Shown one piece after another: positions 16,604 through 29,422 of a DNA stretch of 29,747 nt. A model generated the notes under the pieces. The model ran no database searches and was not told the DNA's origin. It saw nothing but the letters and a program-made list of their open reading frames with translations. Position 1 is the first letter of the stretch. Each line of letters starts with the position of its first letter. The stretch lies in IMG/VR virus record IMGVR_UViG_3300017740_000048, positions 1-29,747 of that record. The stretch is one strand, 5' to 3'. Source of the stretch: a virus. The translations under genes and the position numbers were made by a program.

Positions 16604-17507
16604 TAGTGTGTTTGATAATAAAACTGAAAAACGTATTGATGTTGCTAACTTCGATGCGTTTGAACGTACTTTGTATTCGTTATCAGAAAAGCCTAGAGCT
16701 TCTAAAAAAGATGCAGACTTAATTTCTCCTGCTGTATATGATATAAGTACTACACGGGCTAATCGCAACGTTTTAGAATGGGGTGGTTGGTGCGCTGTCG
16801 ATGTTGACGATATGCAATTTGAAGGTGAATTAAATGATGCACTCATTAAGTATACTCGTAACTGGCGTTTCGTGTGTTATTCTACTGCTAGCAGCACTGT
16901 CAGTTTTCCAAAGTTCCGTCTTGTATTTCCACTTAAAAGAACGCTATCGAATGGCGAAATTTCTAGTTTCAATTTCGCGCTACAGAAAGCCATCGGAGGA
17001 ATTGGAGATGAGCAGACAAAAGACCTTGCTAGAATGTATTATATTCCTGCGAAGTATGATGGTGCTAATAATTTTATCTTCTCTATCGATGGTGATTTTA
17101 TTGATCCAGATGCATTAATGAAAGAATTTCCATATGAACAAAAATCAAGCTCATCTCAATTCTTCGATCGATTACCAGAAGCAATCCAAAAACAAATCAT
17201 TGAACATAGAAAAGGACAGCTCGATAACACTAATGTGGTGTGGTCGTCCTATCGCGATTGTCCCTTTTTCCCACGAAATATGGAAGCAGAATACAGAACA
17301 ATAACAAATACTGGTTGGTATCATAAAATGTATCAAATTATGGTAGCAATTGCAAGTAAAGCTGTTCGCAATAATTATCCAATTACTGCGAATGAAATCG
17401 CTAAATTATGTCAAGAGCTAGATGCAGAAACTGGTAATTGGTATAAAAATCGTCCTATAGATAAAGAAGCAGATAGAGCGTTAGAATATGTGTACAAAAA
17501 TATGTAA
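16566..17507 (+). CDS. Putative prim-pol-like (archaeo-eukaryotic primase fold) protein
   Basis: 313 residues from ATG 16566. An upstream TTG at 16554, with GAAGGA spaced four bases away, would add four residues. WCAVDVDDMQF (D79, D81, D82) resembles the metal-binding DxD of prim-pol enzymes. YSTASSTVSFPKFRLVFPL and DLARMYYIPAKYDG match the layout of plasmid and phage AEP-like replication proteins. The usual histidine after the serine in motif II is not seen (STASST), so activity is uncertain. The C-terminal 90 residues are helical (MVAIASKAVRNNYPITANEIAKL) and could bind DNA. No T4 gp61-type primase is in this window. Confidence 0.55.
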   Translation: MTTTLGISLTLFNSVFDNKTEKRIDVANFDAFERTLYSLSEKPRASKKDADLISPAVYDISTTRANRNVLEWGGWCAVDVDDMQFEGELNDALIKYTRNWRFVCYSTASSTVSFPKFRLVFPLKRTLSNGEISSFNFALQKAIGGIGDEQTKDLARMYYIPAKYDGANNFIFSIDGDFIDPDALMKEFPYEQKSSSSQFFDRLPEAIQKQIIEHRKGQLDNTNVVWSSYRDCPFFPRNMEAEYRTITNTGWYHKMYQIMVAIASKAVRNNYPITANEIAKLCQELDAETGNWYKNRPIDKEADRALEYVYKNM

Positions 17508-17519
17508 ATGTGGTATAAT
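17491..17519 (+). promoter_or_regulatory. Early-type promoter for the hydroxymethylase operon
   Basis: -35 TGTACA (17491-17496), 17-base spacer, extended -10 TGTGGTATAAT with TATAAT at 17514-17519. It overlaps the end of the preceding gene. The next ATG is only nine bases downstream of the -10 box and has no Shine-Dalgarno. Confidence 0.9.
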
Positions 17520-17528
17520 AGGTGTATT

Positions 17529-17987
17529 ATGAAAGAATCAGTTAAAGTCCTACAAGAGTGTGCCGAACTTCAAGTAAAGAAAGGCAACGATTATCAAAAC
17601 GAGTTTTCTCGTATTAAACAAGCAGACTATTATCCGAATGGTGTGTCAACCTTACTTGACATTAATCATGCAAAAATGCTTCGTATGCAGTCTGTTGTTT
17701 CAGCTATGATGGCTGATCCAACCTATCAACCAAACTTTGAATCAATCGAAGATTCAGCCAAAGATATGATTAACTATTGTTCGTTTATTGTGTCTTATTG
17801 TCGTGGTAAGATGGATGGTCAAGATCCAACTCGTGATTTTCTTAATCGTCCAAATACAAAATTAAAACAAAGACCAGTAGAATACACTAAACCAGAACCT
17901 GGTGAAAAATATCCTGCTAGAGAAGATGTGCCGGCTGAACTATGGGGTAAAGATATTAAGGAAGTGATGTCAAGTGATGAATGTTAA
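17529..17987 (+). CDS. Nmad1/DUF1599-like protein (nucleotide-modification associated)
   Basis: 152 residues from ATG 17529. The frame is open to 17508, but that part is promoter. ECAELQVKKGNDYQ, then YYPNGVSTLLDINHAKMLRMQSV, then NFESIEDSAKDMINYCSFIVSYCRG resembles the helical DUF1599 family, also listed as nucleotide modification associated domain 1 and related to MazG-type folds. The C-terminal 45 residues are proline-rich and probably extended. It is the first gene of the unit containing dCMP hydroxymethylase. Family assignment is by memory of the motif, and activity is unknown. Confidence 0.6.
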   Translation: MKESVKVLQECAELQVKKGNDYQNEFSRIKQADYYPNGVSTLLDINHAKMLRMQSVVSAMMADPTYQPNFESIEDSAKDMINYCSFIVSYCRGKMDGQDPTRDFLNRPNTKLKQRPVEYTKPEPGEKYPAREDVPAELWGKDIKEVMSSDEC

Positions 17988-18630
17988 AGATATTAGAAAT
18001 CATTTTATTAATGAATTAAAAAATGAAAGATTTACTACAGATAAAACAGGCCAAAAAACTATTGAAATGATTGGTGCTTCATTTATTGCAGATGAAGAAT
18101 CTATTTTTGGTAAACCAAATAAAGAATATATTGATGCAGAAATAGATTGGTATTTGTCTGGATCTACTAATATCAACGATATTTATCCAGACGATCGCGA
18201 TCCTCCAAAAGCGTGGCAAATGGCTGCAAATAAGTATGGAGAAGTTAACTCAAATTATGGATACCTTGTATTTGACGATAAGTGGTTTCGTCAATATGAT
18301 AATGTCGTTAACGAATTAACTTTAAATAAAGATTCTCGTAGAGCGTGTATGGTTTATAATCGTCCATCAATTTGGGTTGATGCATTTTCAAACGACAAAA
18401 ATGATTTTATTTGTACAAATGCAGTTACATATTATATTCGAGACGATAAATTGCATGCTGTAGTGCAGATGAGATCTAATGATGTGGTTTATGGTTATAA
18501 AAATGATTACGCATGGCAAAGCTATATGGTGCATTCAATTTCAAACGGTTTAGAAATTGATCAAGGTACTATTACTTGGCAAGTGCAAAATCTACATGTA
18601 TATGAAAGGCATTTTGATCTTGTCGAATAA
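17977..18630 (+). CDS. 42: dCMP hydroxymethylase (thymidylate synthase family)
   Basis: Converts dCMP to 5-hydroxymethyl-dCMP with methylene-tetrahydrofolate, as T4 gp42 does. 217 residues from ATG 17977. GTG 17974 is an alternative with better spacing to GGAAG. DKTGQKTIEMIGASFIADE, then SRRACMVYNRPSIW, CTNAVTYYIRDDKL and MRSNDVVYGYKNDYAWQ follow T4 gp42 closely. The nucleophile is C146. Asp177 takes the position where thymidylate synthases have Asn and where T4 has Asp179, which selects cytosine over uracil. It ends LHVYERHFDLV and overlaps the deaminase gene. The phage DNA therefore probably contains hydroxymethylcytosine or a derivative. Confidence 0.9.
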   Translation: MNVKDIRNHFINELKNERFTTDKTGQKTIEMIGASFIADEESIFGKPNKEYIDAEIDWYLSGSTNINDIYPDDRDPPKAWQMAANKYGEVNSNYGYLVFDDKWFRQYDNVVNELTLNKDSRRACMVYNRPSIWVDAFSNDKNDFICTNAVTYYIRDDKLHAVVQMRSNDVVYGYKNDYAWQSYMVHSISNGLEIDQGTITWQVQNLHVYERHFDLVE

Positions 18631-19081
18631 ATGGGACATCAGATACCTTGAGCTAGCAGAACTTGTAGCAACTTGGTCTAAAGATCCGTCAAGCAAAATC
18701 GGTGCAGTGGCAGTAGGATCTAAAGGTGAAGTTCTCGCTCAAGGCTATAATGGTTTTCCTCGAGGAATACATGATCTTGCGAGTAGATATACAAACCGCG
18801 AGGTCAAATACAAATATGTTGTTCATGCAGAAATGAACGTCATATATAATGCTACGTATAATGGAGTTTCTTTAGATGGATCTACAATATACGTATCTGG
18901 TTTGCCAGTTTGCTCTGACTGTGCAAAGGGTATAATTCAAGTCGGAATAAAAAGAGTTGTTATGAAAGAACAAAATATCCCACAACATTGGGCAGAATCG
19001 TGGGGAATGACAGCCGGAATGTTCGACGAAGCAAATATTAGTTGGGAGTTTATTAATGTCAATGATTCACGAAGGTCATGA
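18602..19081 (+). CDS. dCMP deaminase
   Basis: Zinc enzyme that makes dUMP from dCMP and so feeds thymidylate synthesis. The zinc and catalytic motifs are VVHAEMN (His-Ala-Glu) and LPVCSDCAKG (PxCxxC variant). The N-terminal WDIRYLELAELVATWSKDPSSKIGAVAV is typical. The start is uncertain: ATG 18602 gives 159 residues (MKGILILSNKWD), and TTG 18620 with AAAGG upstream gives 153. Both lie inside the end of the hydroxymethylase gene. Together the two genes partition dCMP between hydroxymethylation and thymidine synthesis. The 3' end overlaps the next gene by 26 bases. Confidence 0.92.
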   Translation: MKGILILSNKWDIRYLELAELVATWSKDPSSKIGAVAVGSKGEVLAQGYNGFPRGIHDLASRYTNREVKYKYVVHAEMNVIYNATYNGVSLDGSTIYVSGLPVCSDCAKGIIQVGIKRVVMKEQNIPQHWAESWGMTAGMFDEANISWEFINVNDSRRS

Positions 19082-19295
19082 AGATTATATGAAGCGTAGA
19101 ATGGCAGAAGAATCCAAAGGTAGAACTACGGGAGATGTCTATAATGAATATAGTAATTTAAGATTGACAAAAGAAATAGAAGAATTAAAAGAACGCCTAA
19201 AGCGTGTTGAAACTGATATGGCATACACACAAAAAATTAGATTTGTTGATGCTGAAAGTCCCGAAGAACAAAAAATATATGACTTACGAAAATAG
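19056..19295 (+). CDS. Small coiled-coil protein, unknown function
   Basis: 79 residues with GGGAG (19044-19048) seven bases upstream. The middle LRLTKEIEELKERLKRVETDM is a clear short coiled coil. The ends are charged (HEGHEDYMKRRMAEESKGR and ESPEEQKIYDLRK). It is embedded in the modification operon between deaminase and the first large unknown protein, so it may scaffold or pair with one of them. Confidence 0.7.
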   Translation: MSMIHEGHEDYMKRRMAEESKGRTTGDVYNEYSNLRLTKEIEELKERLKRVETDMAYTQKIRFVDAESPEEQKIYDLRK

Positions 19296-19303
19296 GAAAT
19301 AAA

Positions 19304-20479
19304 ATGTCGCTTGAGTTGACTGAATATTATGATGAGTTCATTCGTTATTTTCACCTTGCTAAAGATCAACAAGTAAAATGTAATGTAGCTGATGAAGAAC
19401 CGTATGGTATGATTCCTCATATGGAATCAAATATGGATGATGATCTTATGCATTGGATTGAATTATACGATGTAGTTGAGCGTAAGTTTGCAGGATTCTC
19501 ACAAATTATGAATGATTGTTGGTCCGGTTGGACTGACGATCATCCATATTGGAGAAAGATGCAAGCCGGTCTTCATTGTGATCAACGTAAAGTTGTAGCC
19601 GAAAGTTGGACTGGTAAACATAAAGATTTTGATTTGCCTGAATGGTTATATCTTTTTATTTTACATAGAGTGTGTGGATCTGCTATTAATTATGCAACTA
19701 AGCCTTCTGGTTATCATAACACTTTATTATTTACTTTGCATAAAGCCAAAACTATTGAAGAAATGATTTGGCATATGAAAAGACATACCAGTCCATTTTA
19801 CACTTCTGTTGGTTATCAGTTTCCTAAGTTTCCTAAACCACCAAAAGATTCAGGTTATAAAAGAAGTGGAGATTATTATTTAGCAGAATTTGCTCCTCGG
19901 CTTGCAAGAGAAATGGCAGAGTGGTTACAATCTGCAAACGAAAGAAAAGATCTTCGAGAAATCGGAGAATACATGGGGAAATGGAACGAAAAAAATGGAC
20001 TCAATAGGTACACTTTTCAATATGCTGCTGTTGTTGCCGATATTTGCGATTGGTATCCACAGTATGTCAACAAAGAATCCCATTTTTATTATGGTACTAA
20101 TGCAGTGGAGTGTATATCTTATTTGGCTAAGCCCACTGTTAAAATAAAAAAAGAAGTATTCCTCGATAAAGTTATGGATAAAATTTATGAGGATACAAAA
20201 TCGTATCCATATAATGCTGAAGATGTCTGTTGTGATTTTATTCGATGGGTTGAGAATTATATGAGACCTGGTGCACATTACTCACATGTAGATATGGATA
20301 ATGTTTGGTCTTCATGTAAAATTAAAGATCATCCATTTGGTAGACAGAAAGCTATGTTAGAATTAGGTTTAGTTGAAACTTTTAATAACCGCAAACATCA
20401 TCCATCAGATGATACAGTTCTCAATGAAGTTGGTATTTCTGTAGAAGAATATAAGAAAAGATGTATAACGCTACACTAG
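19304..20479 (+). CDS. Large protein of unknown function in modification operon (A)
   Basis: 391 residues, not recognised with certainty. It is rich in Trp, Tyr and His and predicted helical. Notable stretches are SGWTDDHPYWRKMQAGLHCDQ, WLYLFILHRVCGSAINYATKP, GYHNTLLFTLHKAKTIEEMIW, SHFYYGTNAVECISYLAKP and RWVENYMRPGAHYSHVD. The last two, a late glycine-containing segment after a helical body, recall loosely the helical phage enzymes that modify thymine in DNA (amino-acid:DNA transferase or HMU-kinase helical families). This is inference from context. The end overlaps the next gene by 19 bases, so products A and B are likely made together. Confidence 0.6.
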   Translation: MSLELTEYYDEFIRYFHLAKDQQVKCNVADEEPYGMIPHMESNMDDDLMHWIELYDVVERKFAGFSQIMNDCWSGWTDDHPYWRKMQAGLHCDQRKVVAESWTGKHKDFDLPEWLYLFILHRVCGSAINYATKPSGYHNTLLFTLHKAKTIEEMIWHMKRHTSPFYTSVGYQFPKFPKPPKDSGYKRSGDYYLAEFAPRLAREMAEWLQSANERKDLREIGEYMGKWNEKNGLNRYTFQYAAVVADICDWYPQYVNKESHFYYGTNAVECISYLAKPTVKIKKEVFLDKVMDKIYEDTKSYPYNAEDVCCDFIRWVENYMRPGAHYSHVDMDNVWSSCKIKDHPFGRQKAMLELGLVETFNNRKHHPSDDTVLNEVGISVEEYKKRCITLH

Positions 20480-21447
20480 AATCTTTTATGGGATCAGATG
20501 ATAATTCAATTGTATATAGAAACACATCAGAACCAATATTAAAAAAAGGTAAAGTTACAAACCATCTTCTAGAAAAATGGTCACTCGAAGAACGAATGCA
20601 AAAGTTCTTCGAGTTTTGTCGTGCGTATGATGTAAGAGAAGAACCTTTGCTTAAATCAAATCCACAACAATTTTCCCATCGCTTACACTGGGATGAGATG
20701 CCTTATGTTGAAGAAATGAAACATGAAAAGGATGTAGAAAAACTTTTACATCATACTATTGTTTGGTCGTTTAGTAATGAACATTGGTTGACTTTTAGAA
20801 CATTACGAGATCATGGTATTGATGCCATGAAAAATAGATTTATTACAGAAAGACATGCAAGATCAGATTTATTTCAGGTATATTATCCTAAAGGTACTAA
20901 GGTAAAAGAATGGCTTTGTGAAACACCACAACAAATCGCAAAAGATTGTTATCCGCTTTTGCAATCAAATCGACCATTAAAAATGATGGAATTGGCATCT
21001 AAACTTGAGAAACATACGAAAGAAAAATACGGATTTAGAAACGTTATGTATCCATATAAGAATCTATCTCGTCACATAGCTATGGCAAGACCTGATCTCG
21101 TTGATCCAGAATCGTGGGTCACGCCAGGAACATTATCGTTTTATGGGTTATGGCAAATATTTGGTGGAAAAAACTTATTCGGTAAAACAAAATTTGAATT
21201 AGATGAAAATGGTAATTACGAACCTATTAATGACCAAGCAAAATGGTTAGTAGAACAATTTAATACTTTAGCTGCGCATAAAGATAATCCTATGGAGCGG
21301 CAATATAATATTAATATTGAAGATAAAGCTTGTATGTGGTGTAAACATTTATTTATTAAACATGGAGTCAAATCTACTACAAAGAAAATTCCATATGAAT
21401 GGATTTATCCACGTAATTTTTCTCTAAAAAAAGGTTTACATTCCTAG
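20461..21447 (+). CDS. Large protein of unknown function in modification operon (B)
   Basis: 328 residues, not recognised. It is helical and aromatic-rich like its upstream neighbour. Segments of note are VWSFSNEHWLTFRTLRDHGI, YGFRNVMYPYKNLSRHIAMA, SWVTPGTLSFYGLWQIFGG and the C-terminal EDKACMWCKHLFIKHG with a CxxC-like pair (Cys-Met-Trp-Cys). The last element could bind metal or be a substrate site. The start is a bare ATG inside gene A without a clear Shine-Dalgarno, so it depends on coupling. It ends just before a promoter. DNA-base transferase activity is a hypothesis only. Confidence 0.6.
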   Translation: MYNATLESFMGSDDNSIVYRNTSEPILKKGKVTNHLLEKWSLEERMQKFFEFCRAYDVREEPLLKSNPQQFSHRLHWDEMPYVEEMKHEKDVEKLLHHTIVWSFSNEHWLTFRTLRDHGIDAMKNRFITERHARSDLFQVYYPKGTKVKEWLCETPQQIAKDCYPLLQSNRPLKMMELASKLEKHTKEKYGFRNVMYPYKNLSRHIAMARPDLVDPESWVTPGTLSFYGLWQIFGGKNLFGKTKFELDENGNYEPINDQAKWLVEQFNTLAAHKDNPMERQYNINIEDKACMWCKHLFIKHGVKSTTKKIPYEWIYPRNFSLKKGLHS

Positions 21448-21463
21448 CATAATTTGGTATAAT
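21435..21463 (+). promoter_or_regulatory. Early-type promoter for the PLP/radical SAM operon
   Basis: -35 TTTACA (21435-21440), 17-base spacer, extended -10 TTTGGTATAAT with TATAAT at 21458-21463. The ATG of the PLP gene is six bases after the -10 box, so the mRNA should start on or next to the initiation codon. Confidence 0.9.
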
Positions 21464-21469
21464 ATACTT

Positions 21470-22414
21470 ATGTCACACGATAAACACGTAATCGATAATA
21501 TTAATAAAGATGTTCAGGCTTTGCTTTTAGATGGTGTTACATCGCGTCAAGAAGCAAAAGAATATTATCTCAATTTAGCAGGTAGTTGGATAGATCCTAA
21601 CCCTGCTCCAATAGTGGAGACATATAATGGTGTACGAGTTGTACGAGATGATCTCATTACTGGATCAAAGGTTCGCGGTGGCGATTGTCTTATATCTGGT
21701 CTTAATCACTCCACTCTTGTTTATGTTCAGCCTCGCACTGGTTTGGCAGGGGTTTCGCTTTTGGATGTGGCCAAACGAAGAGGAAAACGCGTTAAACTTT
21801 TTATGCCCTCCTCAAAAAGAATCTCTCATCATCAGGCTTGTTGTATTGAACGGGGTGCTGACTACGAGTTTCATCGTGTTGCTGCCATGCCTAATCTTAA
21901 TAGGATAGCAGAAAAATGGGCAAGAGACAAAGAAGATGCATTTTTTATCCCGTTAGGTTTAAAGCACGAACGCGTTACGGCAGGCATCGTAAAGGTAGCT
22001 GCAACAATACCAGAACCAGAAGAAGTATGGACCGTAGTATCTACAGGCGTACTTCATCGAGCATTACAGATCGCGTGGCCAAACGCTAAGTTTCATGCTG
22101 TTGCTGTTGCTCGTAATATGAAAGAAGGCGAAGTTGGACATAGCAATATTATATCTGCGCCTGAACCATTTACTAAAGAAATTAAAGAAGGCTTGCCGCC
22201 CTTCCCAAGCATAAACACATATGATGGAAAAGCATGGCGTTATATCCCTAAAAATACTGATAGGGACATCTTATTTTGGAATGTAGGTACTGAACCAGTA
22301 CTAAACGATGATACTATATACGATAGAGTTGATTCATATAGAAAGTGGACTAAAGATGAAAAAAATACTACTCACGGGTCTGGGACCAATCTCGAACAAA
22401 ATACATTCGCATAA
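21470..22414 (+). CDS. PLP-dependent enzyme, fold type II (tryptophan synthase beta-like)
   Basis: 314 residues. VRDDLITGSKVRGG holds the expected Schiff-base lysine K67 in a context like ACC deaminase and D-cysteine desulfhydrase. TGLAGVSLLDVAKRRGKRVKLFMPS followed by CCIERGADYEF repeats the family's 'small-residue loop, Rossmann helix, alcohol/strand, GA-x-V/Y' order. The C-terminal WNVGTEP may contact the cofactor ring. Such enzymes eliminate, deaminate or rearrange amino acids. In known thymidine hypermodification a PLP enzyme tailors the amino-acid adduct. Its promoter makes it leaderless. Bases 21661-21900 have raised GC and unusual codons. Confidence 0.8.
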   Translation: MSHDKHVIDNINKDVQALLLDGVTSRQEAKEYYLNLAGSWIDPNPAPIVETYNGVRVVRDDLITGSKVRGGDCLISGLNHSTLVYVQPRTGLAGVSLLDVAKRRGKRVKLFMPSSKRISHHQACCIERGADYEFHRVAAMPNLNRIAEKWARDKEDAFFIPLGLKHERVTAGIVKVAATIPEPEEVWTVVSTGVLHRALQIAWPNAKFHAVAVARNMKEGEVGHSNIISAPEPFTKEIKEGLPPFPSINTYDGKAWRYIPKNTDRDILFWNVGTEPVLNDDTIYDRVDSYRKWTKDEKNTTHGSGTNLEQNTFA

Positions 22415-23387
22415 AGCTGCGCAAGCAATAATTTATGCAGATCAGCTTAGCGAAGCTGGTATGGATGTAACGGTTAATTTAGTCAGTAACAAAATTACTG
22501 ATTATACCCCGTATGAAGAAATTTATTTCTATCATGGATCTGATTGGAGTGGCAATTTAAATTTATTTGGTGGTATCGAAGCATATGCAAATACTCAATT
22601 TGTTTCTGCTTTATCACATTTTAATGGTAAAATCAAATCGATCATTGTTGACTTTCCTGATTATGCTTCTATGTTCCTTGATAGATTACAGAAAAAAAAT
22701 ATGCAATGGAATAATGTGCATTGGGAAAATCTTAGAAAACTACAAGGTGAAGCCGAAACAATAGATCCTAATACGATTAAGAGATATAGAAATATTGCAT
22801 TCGGCGATAGTCATGCGATATGTATGTACCGTCCCGGATGGGAGAATATATCTGTACCATTTTCTACACTTCATGGATCTATTAATAGAGGATTTGAAGA
22901 GTTTATTCCTGAAGGCGGAGAGTATGATAATATAGAAACATATTTTGGTAATATTGATATACGTCATCATTTATGTAGATTTGATAATCCAGTCGAAGAA
23001 GCTAAAAAATTAGCTGATAGATATGGAAAAGAAGTCGATCGTATACGAGCACTGCATAAAGCAAATGTCACAGCATGGGAACCACTACCTATTGAAGATG
23101 AAGCTCGTAAAATTCCAAAAACTGGATGGTATAAAGGCACACCATTTTTTGGAAAGTGGCAACAACGTGATGAGGTTCGTAATGCATTTAATGAAAGATT
23201 AAAGTCTCACACACAAGTTTACGAGTGGACTCAACCATTATTAAATCCTATTGGTCAATTAAGTTACGAAGCAATGGAAAAACCTCAGTCAGTTCATCTT
23301 TCTCGTGAATCATATCCTCATTGGCAAGGAAAAAAATGGACAGAGAAAGAAGAATACGGAGCATCGCTTGAAGCATTCTTCGCATAA
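22356..23387 (+). CDS. GDSH-motif protein, SGNH-hydrolase-like
   Basis: 343 residues from ATG 22356, overlapping the PLP gene by 59 bases. The N-terminus MKKILLTGLGPISNK with AAQAIIYADQLSEAGMDVTV looks like the first Rossmann unit of a glycosyltransferase or epimerase. A second part has NIAFGDSHAICMYRPG (candidate nucleophile S152) and YFGNIDIRHHLCRF, the pairing seen in SGNH-like 'GDSH' proteins. A catalytic DxxH is not obvious; RESYPHWQGKKW near the C-terminus may be its counterpart. A sugar, acyl or nucleotide-linked substrate is possible. No specific reaction can be assigned. Confidence 0.6.
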   Translation: MKKILLTGLGPISNKIHSHKAAQAIIYADQLSEAGMDVTVNLVSNKITDYTPYEEIYFYHGSDWSGNLNLFGGIEAYANTQFVSALSHFNGKIKSIIVDFPDYASMFLDRLQKKNMQWNNVHWENLRKLQGEAETIDPNTIKRYRNIAFGDSHAICMYRPGWENISVPFSTLHGSINRGFEEFIPEGGEYDNIETYFGNIDIRHHLCRFDNPVEEAKKLADRYGKEVDRIRALHKANVTAWEPLPIEDEARKIPKTGWYKGTPFFGKWQQRDEVRNAFNERLKSHTQVYEWTQPLLNPIGQLSYEAMEKPQSVHLSRESYPHWQGKKWTEKEEYGASLEAFFA

Positions 23388-24552
23388 TATATGTGTATTA
23401 CCGTGGGTGCATGTCAATCTAAATCCAAACGGCGAAGTCGTACCATGTTGCGTATCTACTAATAACTATGTAATTGGTGATTTAAATAATCAGCCAATAG
23501 AGGATATATGGAATAGTCCTCGTATGGTTAACTTACGCCAACAGTTTTTAGATGGTAAAAAGCCTAAGATTTGCACACGTTGTTTTTCGAAAGAAGAAAC
23601 TGGTGTAAGTAGTAATCGTCAACATAGTAATGAAAAATTTGCTAAAGAGCTAGCAGAGATTAAATCACCTATTGCCGATTTAAATCTATTACATTGGGAC
23701 TTTAGATTTAGTAATTTATGCAATTTTAAATGTCGAAGTTGTGGGCCAGAATTTAGTTCATCTTGGATACCAGATTCAAAAAAACTTGGTAGACCTTATA
23801 ATAATAAGATTCTTAAGAATAAAGAATCAAATATCTATAATTTAATTGATAAAAATATTTTTAAGGTAAAAAGGATATATTTTGCAGGCGGAGAGCCGCT
23901 TTTAATGGACGAACATTGGTATATACTAAGTGAACTTGATAGATTAGGCAGACACGATGTTGTATTAGAATACAATACCAATATGTCTACTCTAAAAAGA
24001 GGTAATAAGCATGTCTTTGATTATTGGAAAAAATTTGATGTGCGCTTATGGCCAAGTATTGATGAGATACATGAAAGAGCCGAAATTATTCGCTCAGGTA
24101 CTCAGTGGAATAAAGTTGAAGAAAATCTAAAAGAAGTTATTGCAGCAGGCATTGAGCCTTCACCTTCTATAACAGTTAGTGTTATGAATGTACACCGCTT
24201 GCGTAATATTATAGATCATTTAGTTAATATAGGAATACGAATTGATAAAATAGGATTCAATATGCTGCATTCACCTGCGCATTATAATATTAGTGTTATG
24301 AATAATGCTGCTAAACAAAAAACTTTATCTGATATAATGAATATGATTTTGGATTATAGATTGCAATATAATTTTAACATGAAAGAAAAACTACAACAAA
24401 TTATTGCGCAACTGAAAACTCCGCAAGATTGTGATGGTTCTATAAAATTAGAAATTATCTCGCATAAAATCGATATCATTCGAAAAGAAAATTTATTTAA
24501 TTCAATCCCAGAGTTAAAATCTAATGTACAAATAGATGAGAATATGGTATAA
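23368..24552 (+). CDS. Radical SAM protein with N-terminal twitch/SPASM-like cluster
   Basis: 394 residues from TTG 23368, preferred because GGAG (23358-23361) is six bases upstream. GTG 23305 is also in frame but has no ribosome site. The radical SAM cluster is C118-x3-C122-x2-C125 (LCNFKCRSCG), and YFAGGEPLL is the GGEP motif. Uniquely placed at the N-terminus are C9, C27, C28 and C69, C72 (NICVLPWVHVNLNPNGEVV, PCC, then CTRC), a twitch-type auxiliary Fe-S site as in 'twitch domain-containing radical SAM' proteins of marine phages. It probably modifies a small molecule, peptide or nucleic-acid base. It overlaps the GDSH gene by 20 bases. Confidence 0.88.
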   Translation: MKHSSHNICVLPWVHVNLNPNGEVVPCCVSTNNYVIGDLNNQPIEDIWNSPRMVNLRQQFLDGKKPKICTRCFSKEETGVSSNRQHSNEKFAKELAEIKSPIADLNLLHWDFRFSNLCNFKCRSCGPEFSSSWIPDSKKLGRPYNNKILKNKESNIYNLIDKNIFKVKRIYFAGGEPLLMDEHWYILSELDRLGRHDVVLEYNTNMSTLKRGNKHVFDYWKKFDVRLWPSIDEIHERAEIIRSGTQWNKVEENLKEVIAAGIEPSPSITVSVMNVHRLRNIIDHLVNIGIRIDKIGFNMLHSPAHYNISVMNNAAKQKTLSDIMNMILDYRLQYNFNMKEKLQQIIAQLKTPQDCDGSIKLEIISHKIDIIRKENLFNSIPELKSNVQIDENMV

Positions 24553-24553
24553 T
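24525..24553 (+). promoter_or_regulatory. Early-type promoter for uvsX
   Basis: -35 TGTACA (24525-24530), 17-base spacer, extended -10 ATGGTATAAT with TATAAT at 24548-24553. It overlaps the end of the radical SAM gene. AAAGGAG follows before the uvsX ATG. Confidence 0.9.
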
Positions 24554-24576
24554 TGACCAGTTAAAAGGAGTTTTAT

Positions 24577-25620
24577 ATGAGTATTATGGATAAACTAAAG
24601 AAGAACAGCAAGGTAAAAGAATCAGAAATCCTTGCAGATTCAAAGTTCTTCAACGAAAAGGATATGGTACCAACAGATGTACCTATGCTTAATGTTGCAT
24701 TATCTGGTTCTATCGATGGAGGTTTGGCACCTGGCCTTACAGTACTTGCAGGTCCATCAAAACATTTTAAAACATCATTCGCACTTATTATGGCTGCAGC
24801 ATATATGAAAAAATATCCAGATTCTGTTATGTTATTTTATGACTCTGAGTTTGGTTCACCACAAGCATATTTCAAACAATATAATATCGATACTTCTCGC
24901 GTGTTGCATACACCTATTGCTAATGTAGAAGAACTTAAGTTTGATATTATTGCACAACTTGAAGAACTCGATCGTAATGACAAAGTTATTATTGTTATTG
25001 ATTCAGTTGGTAACTTGGCATCAAAGAAAGAATTAGATGATGCTATTAGCGAAAAGTCTGTAGCAGATATGTCTCGTGCTAAGTCACTTAAAGGCTTATT
25101 CCGCATGACTACGCCGTATCTAAATATGAAAGACATACCACTCATCGCGGTAAATCATACATATATGGAGATTGGTTTATTTCCAAAAGCTGTAGTTTCT
25201 GGTGGTACAGGTATATATTATTCAGCAGATAATATTTGGATTATTGGTCGTCAACAAGATAAAGTAGGTACTGAAATCAAAGGTTACCATTTTGTCGTTA
25301 ACGTGGAGAAATCAAGGTATGTTAAAGAAAAGTCTAAAATTCCTATTTCTGTTAGTTGGGACGGTGGTGTGCAGTCCTATAGTGGTCTTTTGGATGTTGC
25401 TATGTCTGGCAATTATGTTGCTAAGCCCTCTAATGGTTGGTATTGTCGGGTTGATCGTACTACTGGAGAATTATTGGACCCAAAAGTTCGAGAAAAAGAC
25501 ACCCTCTCAGAAGAATTTTGGTTACCGATATTAGAAGAAACTGATTTTAAAGATTATGTTAGAGAAAAATTTATGATTGGTGGTAAAGAAGATAATGATC
25601 TCGACATACAAGAAGCATAA
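24577..25620 (+). CDS. uvsX: UvsX recombinase (RecA family)
   Basis: Strand-exchange protein for recombination-dependent replication. 347 residues (T4 391). Walker A is GPSKHFKTS (59-67), close to the T4 form. Further markers are MLFYDSEFG, VIIVIDSVGNL (Walker B), IAVNHTYMEIG and VSGGTGIYYSADNIWIIGR. The acidic end GGKEDNDLDIQEA is usual. AAGGAG precedes the ATG at good spacing. The stop overlaps the next gene by 26 bases. Confidence 0.97.
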   Translation: MSIMDKLKKNSKVKESEILADSKFFNEKDMVPTDVPMLNVALSGSIDGGLAPGLTVLAGPSKHFKTSFALIMAAAYMKKYPDSVMLFYDSEFGSPQAYFKQYNIDTSRVLHTPIANVEELKFDIIAQLEELDRNDKVIIVIDSVGNLASKKELDDAISEKSVADMSRAKSLKGLFRMTTPYLNMKDIPLIAVNHTYMEIGLFPKAVVSGGTGIYYSADNIWIIGRQQDKVGTEIKGYHFVVNVEKSRYVKEKSKIPISVSWDGGVQSYSGLLDVAMSGNYVAKPSNGWYCRVDRTTGELLDPKVREKDTLSEEFWLPILEETDFKDYVREKFMIGGKEDNDLDIQEA

Positions 25621-25912
25621 AGAAAACGAAACTTATCAACTAGTTCCTGGTCCTGAGTATGCGCAAAATTGGCATATTAGAATCTTAGAAGGTAACTTTA
25701 TCGAAACAGTTATTGAAGTTGGTACAATTAGTTTTAATGAAGTTGATGAAGGAGTCTTAACTTATAATTTTCAGATAATTGAAACTCCAGATAATACTTT
25801 AACAATTGATAATCCAGATCTTCAATTGGTTGTTGGTGAAATCTTAGAAGAAATTATCCATGCATCAATTGAAAATAATGATGGCAGTATTCAAGTGCGA
25901 GAGAAGAAATGA
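25595..25912 (+). CDS. Conserved small protein downstream of uvsX, unknown function
   Basis: 105 residues from ATG 25595, inside the end of uvsX. A TTG at 25577 would add six residues. It starts MISTYKKHKENETYQLVPGP and contains NWHIRILEGNFIETVIEVGTI and LVVGEILEEIIHASIEN, a beta-rich half followed by helix. Similar proteins follow uvsX in marine T4-like phages. No catalytic residues stand out. It joins the next gene by an ATGA overlap. Confidence 0.72.
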   Translation: MISTYKKHKENETYQLVPGPEYAQNWHIRILEGNFIETVIEVGTISFNEVDEGVLTYNFQIIETPDNTLTIDNPDLQLVVGEILEEIIHASIENNDGSIQVREKK

Positions 25913-26340
25913 AAATTTTAATTTTTGGTTTGCCTGGCTCAGGAAAAACTACACTAGCAGAACCACTCGCCAATTTATTGAGTGCAGTATGGATTAATGC
26001 TGATAAAATTCGTTCTTATTACGAAGGACCTGATATGAATAAATGGGACTTTAGTCCTGAAGGAAGAATGAGACAAGCATTAAGAATGCGGCATTTAGCA
26101 GATGGTGCTGTAATGGCAGGTAAAATTACTGTTACAGATTTTGTTTGTCCAACAGAAGCAGCAAGAAAACAATTTGATCCAGATTTTACAGTTTGGATGG
26201 ACACTATTAAAGAAGGTAGATATGATGACACGAATAAAATGTTTGAAGATCCGCCAACATGTGACTATCATGTAGCCAAATGGTTTGATGATACTCATTC
26301 ACAATTATTACCACTTATTAAGAAATATATGGAGAGATAA
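25909..26340 (+). CDS. APS-kinase-like P-loop kinase
   Basis: 143 residues. Walker A GLPGSGKTT (7-15), then AVWINADKIRSYYEG (the D-x-[VI]-R motif of adenylylsulfate kinases), DFSPEGRMRQALRMRHLAD and GKITVTDFVCPTEAARKQF with the DxxP-like region. The lid and end are short (VWMDTIKEGRYDDTNKMFEDP). The family phosphorylates APS, but phage relatives also phosphorylate hydroxymethylated bases or sugars. Here, near hydroxymethylase and tailoring enzymes, a base or nucleotide hydroxymethyl group is a plausible acceptor. That is inference. Confidence 0.82.
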   Translation: MKILIFGLPGSGKTTLAEPLANLLSAVWINADKIRSYYEGPDMNKWDFSPEGRMRQALRMRHLADGAVMAGKITVTDFVCPTEAARKQFDPDFTVWMDTIKEGRYDDTNKMFEDPPTCDYHVAKWFDDTHSQLLPLIKKYMER

Positions 26341-26341
26341 A

Positions 26342-26587
26342 ATGGAAGCAGCAATTATACTAGGATTATTAGGTTATGGTATGCATCAATATATGGATCA
26401 TAATGATAAGCCAACTACAGAATATGTTTATTCTACTCAAACAACCGAAGATGTTGAAAGCTGGGCCAAAATCAATAATCAAATTAAAACAATTGCTCAA
26501 GTTGATTGGTCGAAAGCTGGCAATTCAAAGGTTGGTGATTCTCCTGAAACAGGTGTTCAGTGGGTATTCATTACAGGTGGAGAATAA
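26342..26587 (+). CDS. Small protein with N-terminal hydrophobic segment, unknown function
   Basis: 81 residues, with GGAGAG (26330-26335) upstream. The first 13 residues (MEAAIILGLLGYG) are hydrophobic but too short to be a sure membrane anchor. The rest is polar (HNDKPTTEYVYSTQTTEDVE, then WSKAGNSKVGDSPETGVQWVFITGGE). The gene sits between the kinase and the nucleotidylyltransferase and touches the latter at its last base. No family is recognised. Confidence 0.65.
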   Translation: MEAAIILGLLGYGMHQYMDHNDKPTTEYVYSTQTTEDVESWAKINNQIKTIAQVDWSKAGNSKVGDSPETGVQWVFITGGE

Positions 26588-27003
26588 TGCAATTTAATCC
26601 ACTAAATCCTACAGTTCAAATGCTTGGTCGTTGGCAACCTTGGCACCCTGCTCATACAGAGTTATTTAAAAAATGCCATTCCATGACAGGTCAAGTTGCA
26701 ATTATGATTAGACAGGTACCTGAAAAGAGAGAGGCAAACTCTCGAGTGCCAGGTCAAGATGATAATCCATTTGATATTGAAACTGTAAAAGAAAAAATTA
26801 TTGCAGAATTATTCATGCATGGGTTTACAATTGATGAAGATTATGTTATAATGGTTGTACCAAACATCGTTGACATTGGATATGGTCGTGATGTTGGTTA
26901 CACATTTACCGAGCATGATCTTGGTGCTGATATGCACAGTATTTCGGCCACTGAGATTCGAGCGCAGATGAGAGAAGACGGGAAACTTGCAGACAAATCT
27001 TGA
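26587..27003 (+). CDS. HxxH nucleotidylyltransferase (NadM/cytidylyltransferase-like)
   Basis: 138 residues from ATG 26587 with GGAG four bases upstream. GRWQPWHPAHTELF (H20, H23) is the nucleotide-binding T/HxGH-type motif, with Ala in place of the second-position Gly. ISATEIRAQMREDG is the C-terminal ISxTxxR phosphate-binding motif. The frame resembles NMN adenylyltransferases and related cytidylyltransferases. Substrate is unknown. With the P-loop kinase two genes upstream it could activate a phosphorylated intermediate as a nucleotide adduct. It overlaps gene 41 by 17 bases. Confidence 0.83.
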   Translation: MQFNPLNPTVQMLGRWQPWHPAHTELFKKCHSMTGQVAIMIRQVPEKREANSRVPGQDDNPFDIETVKEKIIAELFMHGFTIDEDYVIMVVPNIVDIGYGRDVGYTFTEHDLGADMHSISATEIRAQMREDGKLADKS

Positions 27004-28363
27004 ACAGACAATCCTACGTAATCTATTAACAGATGAGCAATATATGCGTAAAGTATTGCCATTCATAAAACCAGATTACTTTGAAGGTGTCTATCGTATA
27101 TTATTTAAAGAAGCAGGTAAGTTTGTTGCTAAATATAATAAACTGCCAACATCTGAATCTTTTAAAATTGAATTAGATCAGACAGATCGATTGACTGGTG
27201 AACAATATACCATTGCTGTTGATATTCTACCTAATTTATTTTCAAAAGAAAAGATTGATGATCAATGGTTACTTGATACCACAGAAAAATGGTGTCAAGA
27301 TAGAGCAATATATAATGCAGTAATGGAATCAATTACTATTATTGATGGTAAACATGAGTCCCTTACGAAGGGTGCTTTACCAGATTTATTAAGTAAAGCT
27401 CTTGGAGTTGCATTTGATACAAATGTCGGTCACGATTATGTAGAGAATGCTGAAGATCGCTTTGATTTTTACCACAAAGAAGAAGATAGGATTCCATTTG
27501 ATCTCGAATATTTCAACAAAATTACAAAAGGTGGTGTACCGAGTAAAACACTTAACATTGCTCTCGCAGGTACTGGCGTTGGCAAGTCTCTATTCATGTG
27601 TCATGTTGCTAGTGGTGCTCTTGTAGAAGGTCGTAATGTTCTATACATTACAATGGAAATGGCTGAAGAACGTATCGCTGAACGTATTGATGCTAATCTA
27701 TTGAATACGCCTATTGATCAGTTACCCAATCTATCGAATGAAATGTTTATTACAAAGGTTCAAGATTTAGCCCGTAAAACAGCAGGTAAATTAATTGTTA
27801 AAGAATACCCAACTGGCTCTGCACATTCTGGACATTTTCGTGCATTGTTAAATGAACTAAAACTTAAAAAACAATTTACACCTGATATTATTTTTATTGA
27901 CTACTTGAACATATGTGCATCATCTCGTATGAAGGCAATGGGAGGATCGATTAATTCATACACTTACATTAAAGCAATTGCTGAAGAGTTACGTGGTCTT
28001 GCGGTCGAGTTCGACGTACCGATCTTCTCTGCAACGCAAACGACTCGTAGTGGTTATGGTAATTCGGATGTTGGGCTTGAAGATACGTCCGAGTCTTTTG
28101 GATTACCCGCTACAGCAGATCTAATGTTTGCCCTTATTTCTACAGAAGAATTAGAAAAACAAGGTCAAATGATGGTTAAACAATTGAAAAATCGATATAA
28201 TGATCCTACATCATATAAGAGATTTGTGATAGGCGTAGATCGATCAAAGATGAGATTATTTGATGTTGATGAAAATGAACAAACATTGACAGATGATACA
28301 CCAGTTTTTGATAAGACAGAAGCTCATGAAAATATGTCAAAGTTTAAGGACTTTAAATTATGA
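26987..28363 (+). CDS. 41: Replicative DNA helicase gp41 (DnaB-like)
   Basis: Hexameric 5'-3' helicase of the T4 primosome. 458 residues (T4 475). Walker A AGTGVGKS (194-201), MEMAEERIAERIDANLL, Walker B DIIFIDYLNIC, and the ring motif SATQTTRSG. KITKGGVPSKTLN and FRALLNELKLKKQF are shared with T4 gp41. The start is TTG 26987, inside the nucleotidylyltransferase gene. No ATG lies before the conserved N-terminal helix. Bases 27961-28140 have about 45% GC against about 20-28% on either side. Confidence 0.96.
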   Translation: MQTNLEQTILRNLLTDEQYMRKVLPFIKPDYFEGVYRILFKEAGKFVAKYNKLPTSESFKIELDQTDRLTGEQYTIAVDILPNLFSKEKIDDQWLLDTTEKWCQDRAIYNAVMESITIIDGKHESLTKGALPDLLSKALGVAFDTNVGHDYVENAEDRFDFYHKEEDRIPFDLEYFNKITKGGVPSKTLNIALAGTGVGKSLFMCHVASGALVEGRNVLYITMEMAEERIAERIDANLLNTPIDQLPNLSNEMFITKVQDLARKTAGKLIVKEYPTGSAHSGHFRALLNELKLKKQFTPDIIFIDYLNICASSRMKAMGGSINSYTYIKAIAEELRGLAVEFDVPIFSATQTTRSGYGNSDVGLEDTSESFGLPATADLMFALISTEELEKQGQMMVKQLKNRYNDPTSYKRFVIGVDRSKMRLFDVDENEQTLTDDTPVFDKTEAHENMSKFKDFKL

Positions 28364-28893
28364 TAGGACTTGGCTTCACCGGTGGTATGGATAGTACAAT
28401 GTTGCTATACGAATTACTGAATGAAACCAAAGAACATATTGTTTGTATAACTAATGATATTAGATCACGTAATACCGTAGCTCATAAAAATGCAGCTAAA
28501 GTACTTACTAAATTTAAATCAGATCGTATAACACATTACACTGATAGCACTTATGGAGTAAATCATATTCAAACATATATTCGTGCTATTGATAAGTTTA
28601 AACTAACTGATTTTTATGCTGGCACAAGTAAGATAGCAAAACATATACTTAATGATACACGTCATACAATGATGAATGGAAATGATCGCATAGACTTTCG
28701 TAATCAAATAATAAGCGATGTCAAAATACATCAACCATATTTTAATTTATATAGGACAGATATTATAAAAAAATACATTAAATATGATATTATAGATATT
28801 ATGCATATGACAAATTCATGCGATAAATTAATTGAAATACCGTGCGGTGAATGTCAAGCTTGTAAAGATAGGGAATGGGCTTTAAATGGATAA
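28360..28893 (+). CDS. QueC-like PP-loop protein (short)
   Basis: 177 residues, about 40-50 shorter than cellular QueC. GFTGGMDSTMLL (residues 5-16) is a PP-loop ATP-pyrophosphatase motif with Thr for the usual Ser of SGGxDS. Four C-terminal cysteines C154, C162, C165 and C168 (SCDKLIEI, PCGECQAC) match the zinc site of 7-cyano-7-deazaguanine synthase. QueC makes preQ0, used for queuosine or for 7-deazaguanine in phage DNA. No QueD, QueE, FolE or transglycosylase gene is in the window, so the pathway would need genes elsewhere or the substrate differs. ATGA overlap with gene 41. Confidence 0.75.
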   Translation: MIGLGFTGGMDSTMLLYELLNETKEHIVCITNDIRSRNTVAHKNAAKVLTKFKSDRITHYTDSTYGVNHIQTYIRAIDKFKLTDFYAGTSKIAKHILNDTRHTMMNGNDRIDFRNQIISDVKIHQPYFNLYRTDIIKKYIKYDIIDIMHMTNSCDKLIEIPCGECQACKDREWALNG

Positions 28894-29422
28894 AATGTTA
28901 GGTGGTACTGGAAGAGAAAAGTTTCCAGACTATGAACAATCAAGGCGAAGTGTTGTCGATAAATTAATTAAAGAAAACAATCTTACGTTTGGCGCAGAGC
29001 TTGGCGTGCAATCAGGTTATTTATTTTTCCATCTTTTAGATACACATCCAAATTTAATTCTTTTTGGTGTAGATTCTTGGATGGGTGTAAATAGAGATGC
29101 ATATGCCAAAATGAAAAAAGAAGTAAATGAAAAAGTGCGTAATTATAAAAATGGTATGATTATGAATATGACTACAATTGAAGCTGCAGAAAAAACTCCT
29201 GATGCAACATTAGATTTTGTTTTTATCGATGCAGATCATTCATATCCATCTTGTAAAATTGATATGCAAAAATGGTTGCCAAAGATAAAAGTCGGTGGTT
29301 ATATTATTGGTCATGATTGTGAAGTTCCATCAGTAAAAAAGGCTATTCAAGAAGTATTTGGAGAAAATTATCAGAAGGATGTTGATCAAGTATGGTACGT
29401 ACAAAAAGTAATGACAGAATAG
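28886..29422 (+). CDS. Class I SAM-dependent methyltransferase
   Basis: 178 residues. The SAM-binding glycine motif is GAELGVQSGYL, followed by LFGVDSW at strand 2 and DFVFIDADHSY (motif IV, acidic), then VGGYIIGHDCE. This arrangement is that of the Methyltransf_24 type, which acts on sugars or small molecules. No DNA-methylase NPPY or DPPY motif is present, so it is not an ordinary adenine or cytosine-N4 DNA methylase. The start overlaps the QueC-like gene by eight bases, and the end overlaps the next by 31. Confidence 0.85.
   Translation: MDKMLGGTGREKFPDYEQSRRSVVDKLIKENNLTFGAELGVQSGYLFFHLLDTHPNLILFGVDSWMGVNRDAYAKMKKEVNEKVRNYKNGMIMNMTTIEAAEKTPDATLDFVFIDADHSYPSCKIDMQKWLPKIKVGGYIIGHDCEVPSVKKAIQEVFGENYQKDVDQVWYVQKVMTE

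Follow-up and report, generated by a model that had tools for sequence, protein, structure and literature searches.

The question raised by the locus described here is how a T4-like phage might decorate its 5-hydroxymethylcytosine (5hmC) with something other than glucose. The locus lies in the IMG/VR record IMGVR_UViG_3300017740_000048; the window analyzed is the entire record (29,747 bp), in which the genome of the phage is incomplete. It holds a T4-like gene set comprising the major head protein, a uvsW-kind DNA helicase, gp46/47, the clamp loader, a family B polymerase, primase, uvsX, and gp41. An initial annotation had described a candidate cytosine hypermodification locus interleaved with uvsX and gp41; the interleaving was borne out, and every open reading frame that it had named is present where it was placed. 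We propose that the stretch 17974-23387 is the core of a pathway that substitutes 5hmC with an amino acid through the chemistry of amino acid:DNA transferases (AADT) and pyridoxal phosphate (PLP) enzymes, a reading that we consider likely. Within this stretch, a block of four genes, encoding two orphan helical proteins (X1 and X2), a PLP enzyme, and a protein with a GDSH motif, probably replaces the 5hmC hydroxyl with an amino-acid-derived group. The block is carried by the window phage and by many uncultured aquatic phages, in which it is likely to serve as a shield against bacterial restriction. All window genes given below lie on the plus strand.

So far, hypermodification of this AADT/PLP type is documented only on thymine-derived bases. 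In Pseudomonas phage M6, Salmonella phage ViI, and Delftia phage phiW-14, thymidine hypermodification employs a 5-hydroxymethyldeoxyuridine DNA kinase, an AADT, a PLP enzyme, and a radical S-adenosylmethionine (SAM) enzyme. A cytosine version would require a different starting base, and the enzyme that would supply it is encoded at 17974..18630. As the initial annotation had it, this product is of the deoxycytidine monophosphate (dCMP) hydroxymethylase type represented by T4 gp42. It matches PF00303 (E 2e-18) and phrog_160 (E 9.5e-50), shows overall similarity to gp42 (51% identity), and carries in alignment both the catalytic Cys and the substrate-specifying Asp equivalent to residue 177 of thymidylate synthase (TS). 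The dCMP-specific Asp is present in 61 of the 61 distinct homologues that have the motif, whereas the same position is Asn in the aligned M6-like and SH-Ab 15599 hydroxymethylases; the window enzyme differs in this respect from those of M6, ViI, and phiW-14, which are of the deoxyuridine monophosphate type (Asn). Because of the identity to gp42, the Asp in all of these homologues, and independent MetaGPA work in which Asp177 marks cytosine-modified contigs (PMC8670742), dCMP hydroxymethylation is well supported as the predicted activity of the 17974 product.

The conservation of the block was followed in 41 independent IMG/VR loci, with duplicates removed and at least 4.5 kb of flank on each side; the PLP, GDSH, and hydroxymethylase genes played no part in choosing them. 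X1 is found in 40 of the 41 loci, X2 in 37, and the PLP and GDSH genes in 40 each. Those of the four genes that a locus has share one strand and span a median of 4.1 kb, and a gp42-type hydroxymethylase stands beside the block in 33 of the loci, at a median distance of about 1.6 kb from X1. The GDSH protein, to which the initial annotation gave no weight, is conserved as well as the transferase-like X1 and X2. The block is also mobile: one clade carries it away from the uvsX-41 region, with its genes arranged GDSH-X1-X2-PLP. Loci L057, L143, L152, and L157 belong to the clade with this gene order and have no dCMP hydroxymethylase nearby.

The two orphan proteins of the core, X1 (19304..20479) and X2 (20461..21447), have at least 484 and at least 418 matches in IMG/VR, respectively. 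They had been called unknown and helical, and so they proved: no match beyond chance was found in Pfam, PHROG, NCBIfam, or the PDB sequences, tblastn against 50,697 cultured phage records gave none, and the AlphaFold2 models (pLDDT 87.2 for X1 and 89.9 for X2, pTM 0.87 each) are largely helical. A fold search of the PDB with X2 returned chance matches only, and influenza haemagglutinin, which came up for X1 at E 0.03-0.08, was likewise rejected as chance. The structure matching that the initial annotation had suggested for these two products led, with Foldseek against viral models, to proteins with an AADT domain and to proteins of the helical hydroxymethyluracil DNA kinase (HMUDK) type. X1 matches A0A6J5L8T5 ("Amino acid:DNA transferase domain", TM 0.90) and X2 matches A0A6J5LCY1 (AADT domain, TM 0.91), both being close homologues. 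The more distant matches are HMUDK-helical proteins of phiW-14, phiRSL1, and Lucky3 (probability near 1, TM 0.35-0.53), and X2 also matches an aGPT-Pplase1 protein (probability 0.97). The motif E-x3-C-x3-[KR] occurs in every member of X1 and X2, and E-x3-C with a nearby Lys or Arg in most AADT/HMUDK proteins, while the X1 and X2 profiles show a weak mutual similarity (E 3e-4, probability 38%). The models thus predict that X1 and X2 are members of the AADT/HMUDK fold superfamily that lie outside both of its Pfam families. In two loci (L142:12791-13804 and L162:12063-13097), a diverged X1 (~30% identity) comes after the PLP gene rather than before X2, and at L136:8175-9110 there is an X2 homologue with the other core genes absent within 19 kb.

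The third gene of the block (21470..22414) encodes the PLP enzyme, correctly assigned to fold type II at the outset. It matches phrog_7093 (E 4e-41), the family that also contains the M6 PLP enzyme (530 bits), which is encoded beside the AADT; hhalign, for which all E-values given here are those of single comparisons, aligns the window family with the M6 protein at a probability of 96.5 (E 9e-10). The 21470 product is thus a PLP enzyme of the M6 tailoring family, and its putative Schiff-base Lys67 is invariant among 25 diverse members. The gene order in the M6-type phage MW2 is AADT, PLP, radical SAM, P-loop kinase, helical protein, and TS. One predicted protein of Erythrobacter phage R6L (L273:3621-6236) unites a PLP domain of the window family with a DNA methylase and a ParB-like domain, a fusion that on its sequence is another link of this PLP family to DNA modification.

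The GDSH protein (22356..23387), in which the GDSH motif is invariant as had been noticed, appears to be a chimaera. Residues 2-114 of the family align with a profile of seven homologues of beta-glucosyltransferase (BGT) (hhalign, probability 96.3, E 1.8e-9), whereas E was about 0.5 in the negative controls, in which X1 and X2 were compared with BGT and the GDSH family with AADT. The alignment takes in an "NxFGG" stretch, and an Asp is aligned with Asp100 of T4 BGT, which we take to be the catalytic Asp of that enzyme. Of 27 family members, 9 match PF09198, weakly and below threshold. The protein therefore carries the N-terminal acceptor/DNA domain of a GT63 BGT. Its C-terminal part contains invariant GDS, GxID, and VH, a set resembling that of SGNH hydrolases, and we tentatively assign it an SGNH-hydrolase-like identity. 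In Aeromonas phage 31, the GDSH homologue (ORF233c, 795 aa, L272:10001-12388) is fused to an HMUDK_hel-like domain, for which the top Pfam match is PF18723 (HMUDK_hel) at E 9e-4, below the cut-off; the hidden Markov models (HMMs) of X1 and X2 gave no direct match to this C-terminal domain. GDSH relatives were also seen in Stenotrophomonas and Tenacibaculum phages.

Following the order of reactions in M6, the gp42-type enzyme would produce 5-hydroxymethyl-dCMP, to be incorporated in place of dC as in T4. The BGT-type domain of the GDSH protein, by its homology, would grip 5hmC and its hydroxyl on DNA, and the hydroxyl would then be activated, either by a non-orthologous kinase or by the SGNH-like half of the GDSH protein. 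X1 and X2, judging from a fold that relates them to the AADT and to the helical protein that partners the 5-hydroxymethyldeoxyuridine DNA kinase, would swap the activated hydroxyl for an amino acid. Trimming of the attached amino acid, e.g., a decarboxylation, would fall to the PLP enzyme, whose M6 relative is believed to do the same. The expected product would be a restriction-resistant C5-methylcytosine bearing an amino acid or an amine.

Several observations weigh against this pathway. X1 and X2 are not recognized by the HMMs of AADT (PF18724) and HMUDK helical (PF18723), although these models find the M6, phiW-14, and ViI proteins used as positive controls; hhalign of X1 and X2 against small AADT/HMUDK alignments of three and nine sequences is weak and not significant (E 0.04-0.2). 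Because the Pfam models are silent and hhalign is weak, it is by structure and motif that X1 and X2 are assigned to the superfamily. X2 is missing from four loci and stands alone in one. In a side clade (G003, G008), X1-X2-PLP-GDSH is present, but G003 has only a canonical ThyA and G008 has no TS in its record, and a TET/JBP enzyme (PF12851) that could provide 5hmC there was not found. Because neither a dCMP hydroxymethylase nor TET/JBP was found in these records, the block may have a different substrate in this clade. Finally, in M6-type systems a P-loop DNA kinase activates the base, and the family of that kinase (phrog_800) shows no conservation across the long relatives: only M6 and ViI gave strong matches, G003 gave a moderate one, and the rest were short P-loop matches, gp46 among them. 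Nor do the six genomes compared have any small P-loop kinase in common.

The hydroxymethyluracil-DNA-kinase step assumed in the initial annotation was consequently not upheld. The APS-kinase-like kinase of the window (25909..26340) lies outside phrog_800, the M6 HMUDK family, and was rejected as a general answer to the missing DNA kinase, being absent from most loci. Because the M6-type P-loop kinase is not conserved, the activation step is left with two candidates: non-orthologous kinases in different lineages (the 25909 kinase here) or the GDSH protein. If the latter applies, the GDSH chimaera would bind 5hmC through its BGT-type domain, its SGNH-like half would activate the hydroxyl (e.g., as an ester), X1 and X2 would put an amino acid in place of the activated group, and trimming would again fall to the PLP enzyme. 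Such a kinase-independent route is speculative, and we regard it as rather unlikely in this specific form. If true, it would give many uncultured aquatic phages a base not known before, and Aeromonas phages 44RR and 31 would have a related version of the route built on the fusion.

The glucosyltransferase-related domain also allows a different interpretation, in which the block glycosylates 5hmC. The hydroxyl would receive a sugar or an acyl group from the GDSH protein, a diverged enzyme resembling glucosyltransferases, while the substrates of X1, X2, and the PLP enzyme would be that substituent or nucleotides. The homology to BGT includes the catalytic-Asp region, as this interpretation would predict, but it stops at residue 114; the C-terminal UDP-glucose-binding domain of BGT is absent from the GDSH protein, its place being taken by the SGNH-like part. 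Furthermore, glycosylation has no need of two AADT-fold proteins and an M6-family PLP enzyme. All matches in the BGT search (PF09198) were sub-threshold, the top one per record being the GDSH protein in six records, and neither alpha-glucosyltransferase (AGT, PF11440) nor full-length BGT was found, whether in the window or in any of nine related records of 118-183 kb. The earlier statement that the window contains no glucosyltransferase thus holds for complete enzymes, but not for the N-terminal domain of the 22356 product, which hhalign relates to BGT. We consider glycosylation by the block improbable. The comparison with glucosylation of 5hmC in T4 (gp42, alpha-gt, beta-gt) points the same two ways: the gp42-type enzyme in the uvsX-41 neighbourhood and the beta-gt-related GDSH domain are shared, whereas the block is without AGT or complete BGT and its tailoring genes encode AADT-fold and PLP enzymes. 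In one genome (G007), a C5-cytosine methylase (PF00145, L228:4928-6130) and a glycosyltransferase-like protein (L228:6189-7157) are encoded directly downstream of the block, and an extra DNA modification is therefore possible in some lineages.

Alternatively, the block could modify another base or act at the nucleotide level, the hydroxymethylase being no more than a gene often found nearby in the T4-like replication cluster. The side clade that has the block without a dCMP hydroxymethylase is what this explanation would predict. It does not readily account for a hydroxymethylase adjacent to the block in most of the independent loci and so close to X1, for a BGT-type domain in the core, or for the GDSH fusion in gene-42-positive Aeromonas phages, and we judge it slightly less probable still than glycosylation.

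Amino-acid substitution of 5hmC thus remains the preferred reading. The 5hmC hypermodification proposed in the initial annotation stands in so far as a dCMP hydroxymethylase is linked to two AADT/HMUDK-fold proteins and an M6-family PLP enzyme, with no AGT or full BGT; its kinase step and its accessory genes are not supported. Like the pathways of M6, ViI, and phiW-14, this one would draw on a hydroxymethylase of the TS family, a pair of proteins with a predicted AADT/HMUDK-helical fold, and the phrog_7093 PLP enzyme. In contrast to them, X1 and X2 are missed by the Pfam models, a P-loop DNA kinase is not conserved, a BGT-SGNH protein belongs to the core, and the radical SAM enzyme is optional and of another family. 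In the 5-carbamoyloxymethylcytosine system (MetaGPA, PMC8670742), an Asp177 TS homologue likewise makes 5hmC that is then derivatised, with dCMP deaminase and PRA-PH neighbours, but the derivatising enzyme is a 5hmC carbamoyltransferase, and PLP enzymes are unmentioned in the text of that paper. The 5-carboxymethylcytosine-glycine amide system (CmoX/CmoY, PMC12783734) also provides a phage cytosine bearing an amino acid; its carboxymethyltransferase and amide ligase are unrelated to the enzymes of the block.

A conserved and widespread cytosine version would extend amino-acid-type chemistry beyond thymine-derived bases and would define two superfamily branches missed by the Pfam models. It would also bear on a question from 2010, namely how 5hmC is protected or decorated in gene-42-positive T4 relatives that have no glucosyltransferases, such as 44RR and 31. 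Petrov et al. (PMC2993671) reported that Aeromonas phages 44RR, 31, and 25 have gene 42 and no glucosyltransferases, and that it was not known whether other 5hmC modifications exist in such phages. The cultured phages 44RR and 31 are where the question can be tested now.

Downstream of the block lie the genes that the initial annotation had included in the pathway, and their identities were confirmed. The twitch radical SAM/SPASM protein (23305..24552) scores 338 bits with NF033640, for which the cut-off is 170, and is patchy, being present only in the closest relatives. The P-loop APS-kinase-like kinase (25909..26340, PF01583 E 7e-7) and the HxxH nucleotidylyltransferase (26560..27003, with the sequence WHPAH) are patchy as well. 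The former maps to the N-terminal half of phrog_10255, a family that combines a kinase with an HxxH nucleotidylyltransferase, and the latter to its C-terminal half, so that a known two-domain protein appears to be split into two genes here. The QueC-like PP-loop protein (28360..28893, PF06508 E 1e-11) is 29-30% identical or absent in many relatives, and the methyltransferase (28886..29422, Pfam match to Methyltransf_24) is patchy. All five genes are gained or lost even among close relatives. Because they are confined to close relatives while the block persists without them, we do not count them as part of the pathway; the QueC-like protein and the methyltransferase were dropped as core candidates, being absent from most loci with an intact core. 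That the full list forms one pathway is very improbable: the genes are neighbours in the window and the split pair matches a two-domain family, but for every one of them, most loci with an intact core have either no counterpart or an unrelated gene.

Two further genes flank the hydroxymethylase. The small conserved protein at 17508..17987 is a near-constant neighbour upstream of it. The Nmad1-like label given to this protein found no support, as it matches only phrog_1485, which is unnamed, and a second family of unnamed type, with no Pfam match. In G003 and G008, the two records examined, a small gene whose product resembles it by eye precedes GDSH. On the other side, the dCMP deaminase (18557..19081), named as such from the start, matches PF00383 (E 1e-19) and phrog_174 (E 2e-44) and is found next to most blocks, not all. 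Small genes lie between the dCMP deaminase and X1 at L199:16309-16728 (no Pfam match) and L223:8655-9122 (UDG-superfamily-like, PF03167 E 4e-4). In G004, a tryptophan-halogenase family protein (L240:1593-3065, PF04820 E 1e-91) is encoded between the DNA polymerase and the block.

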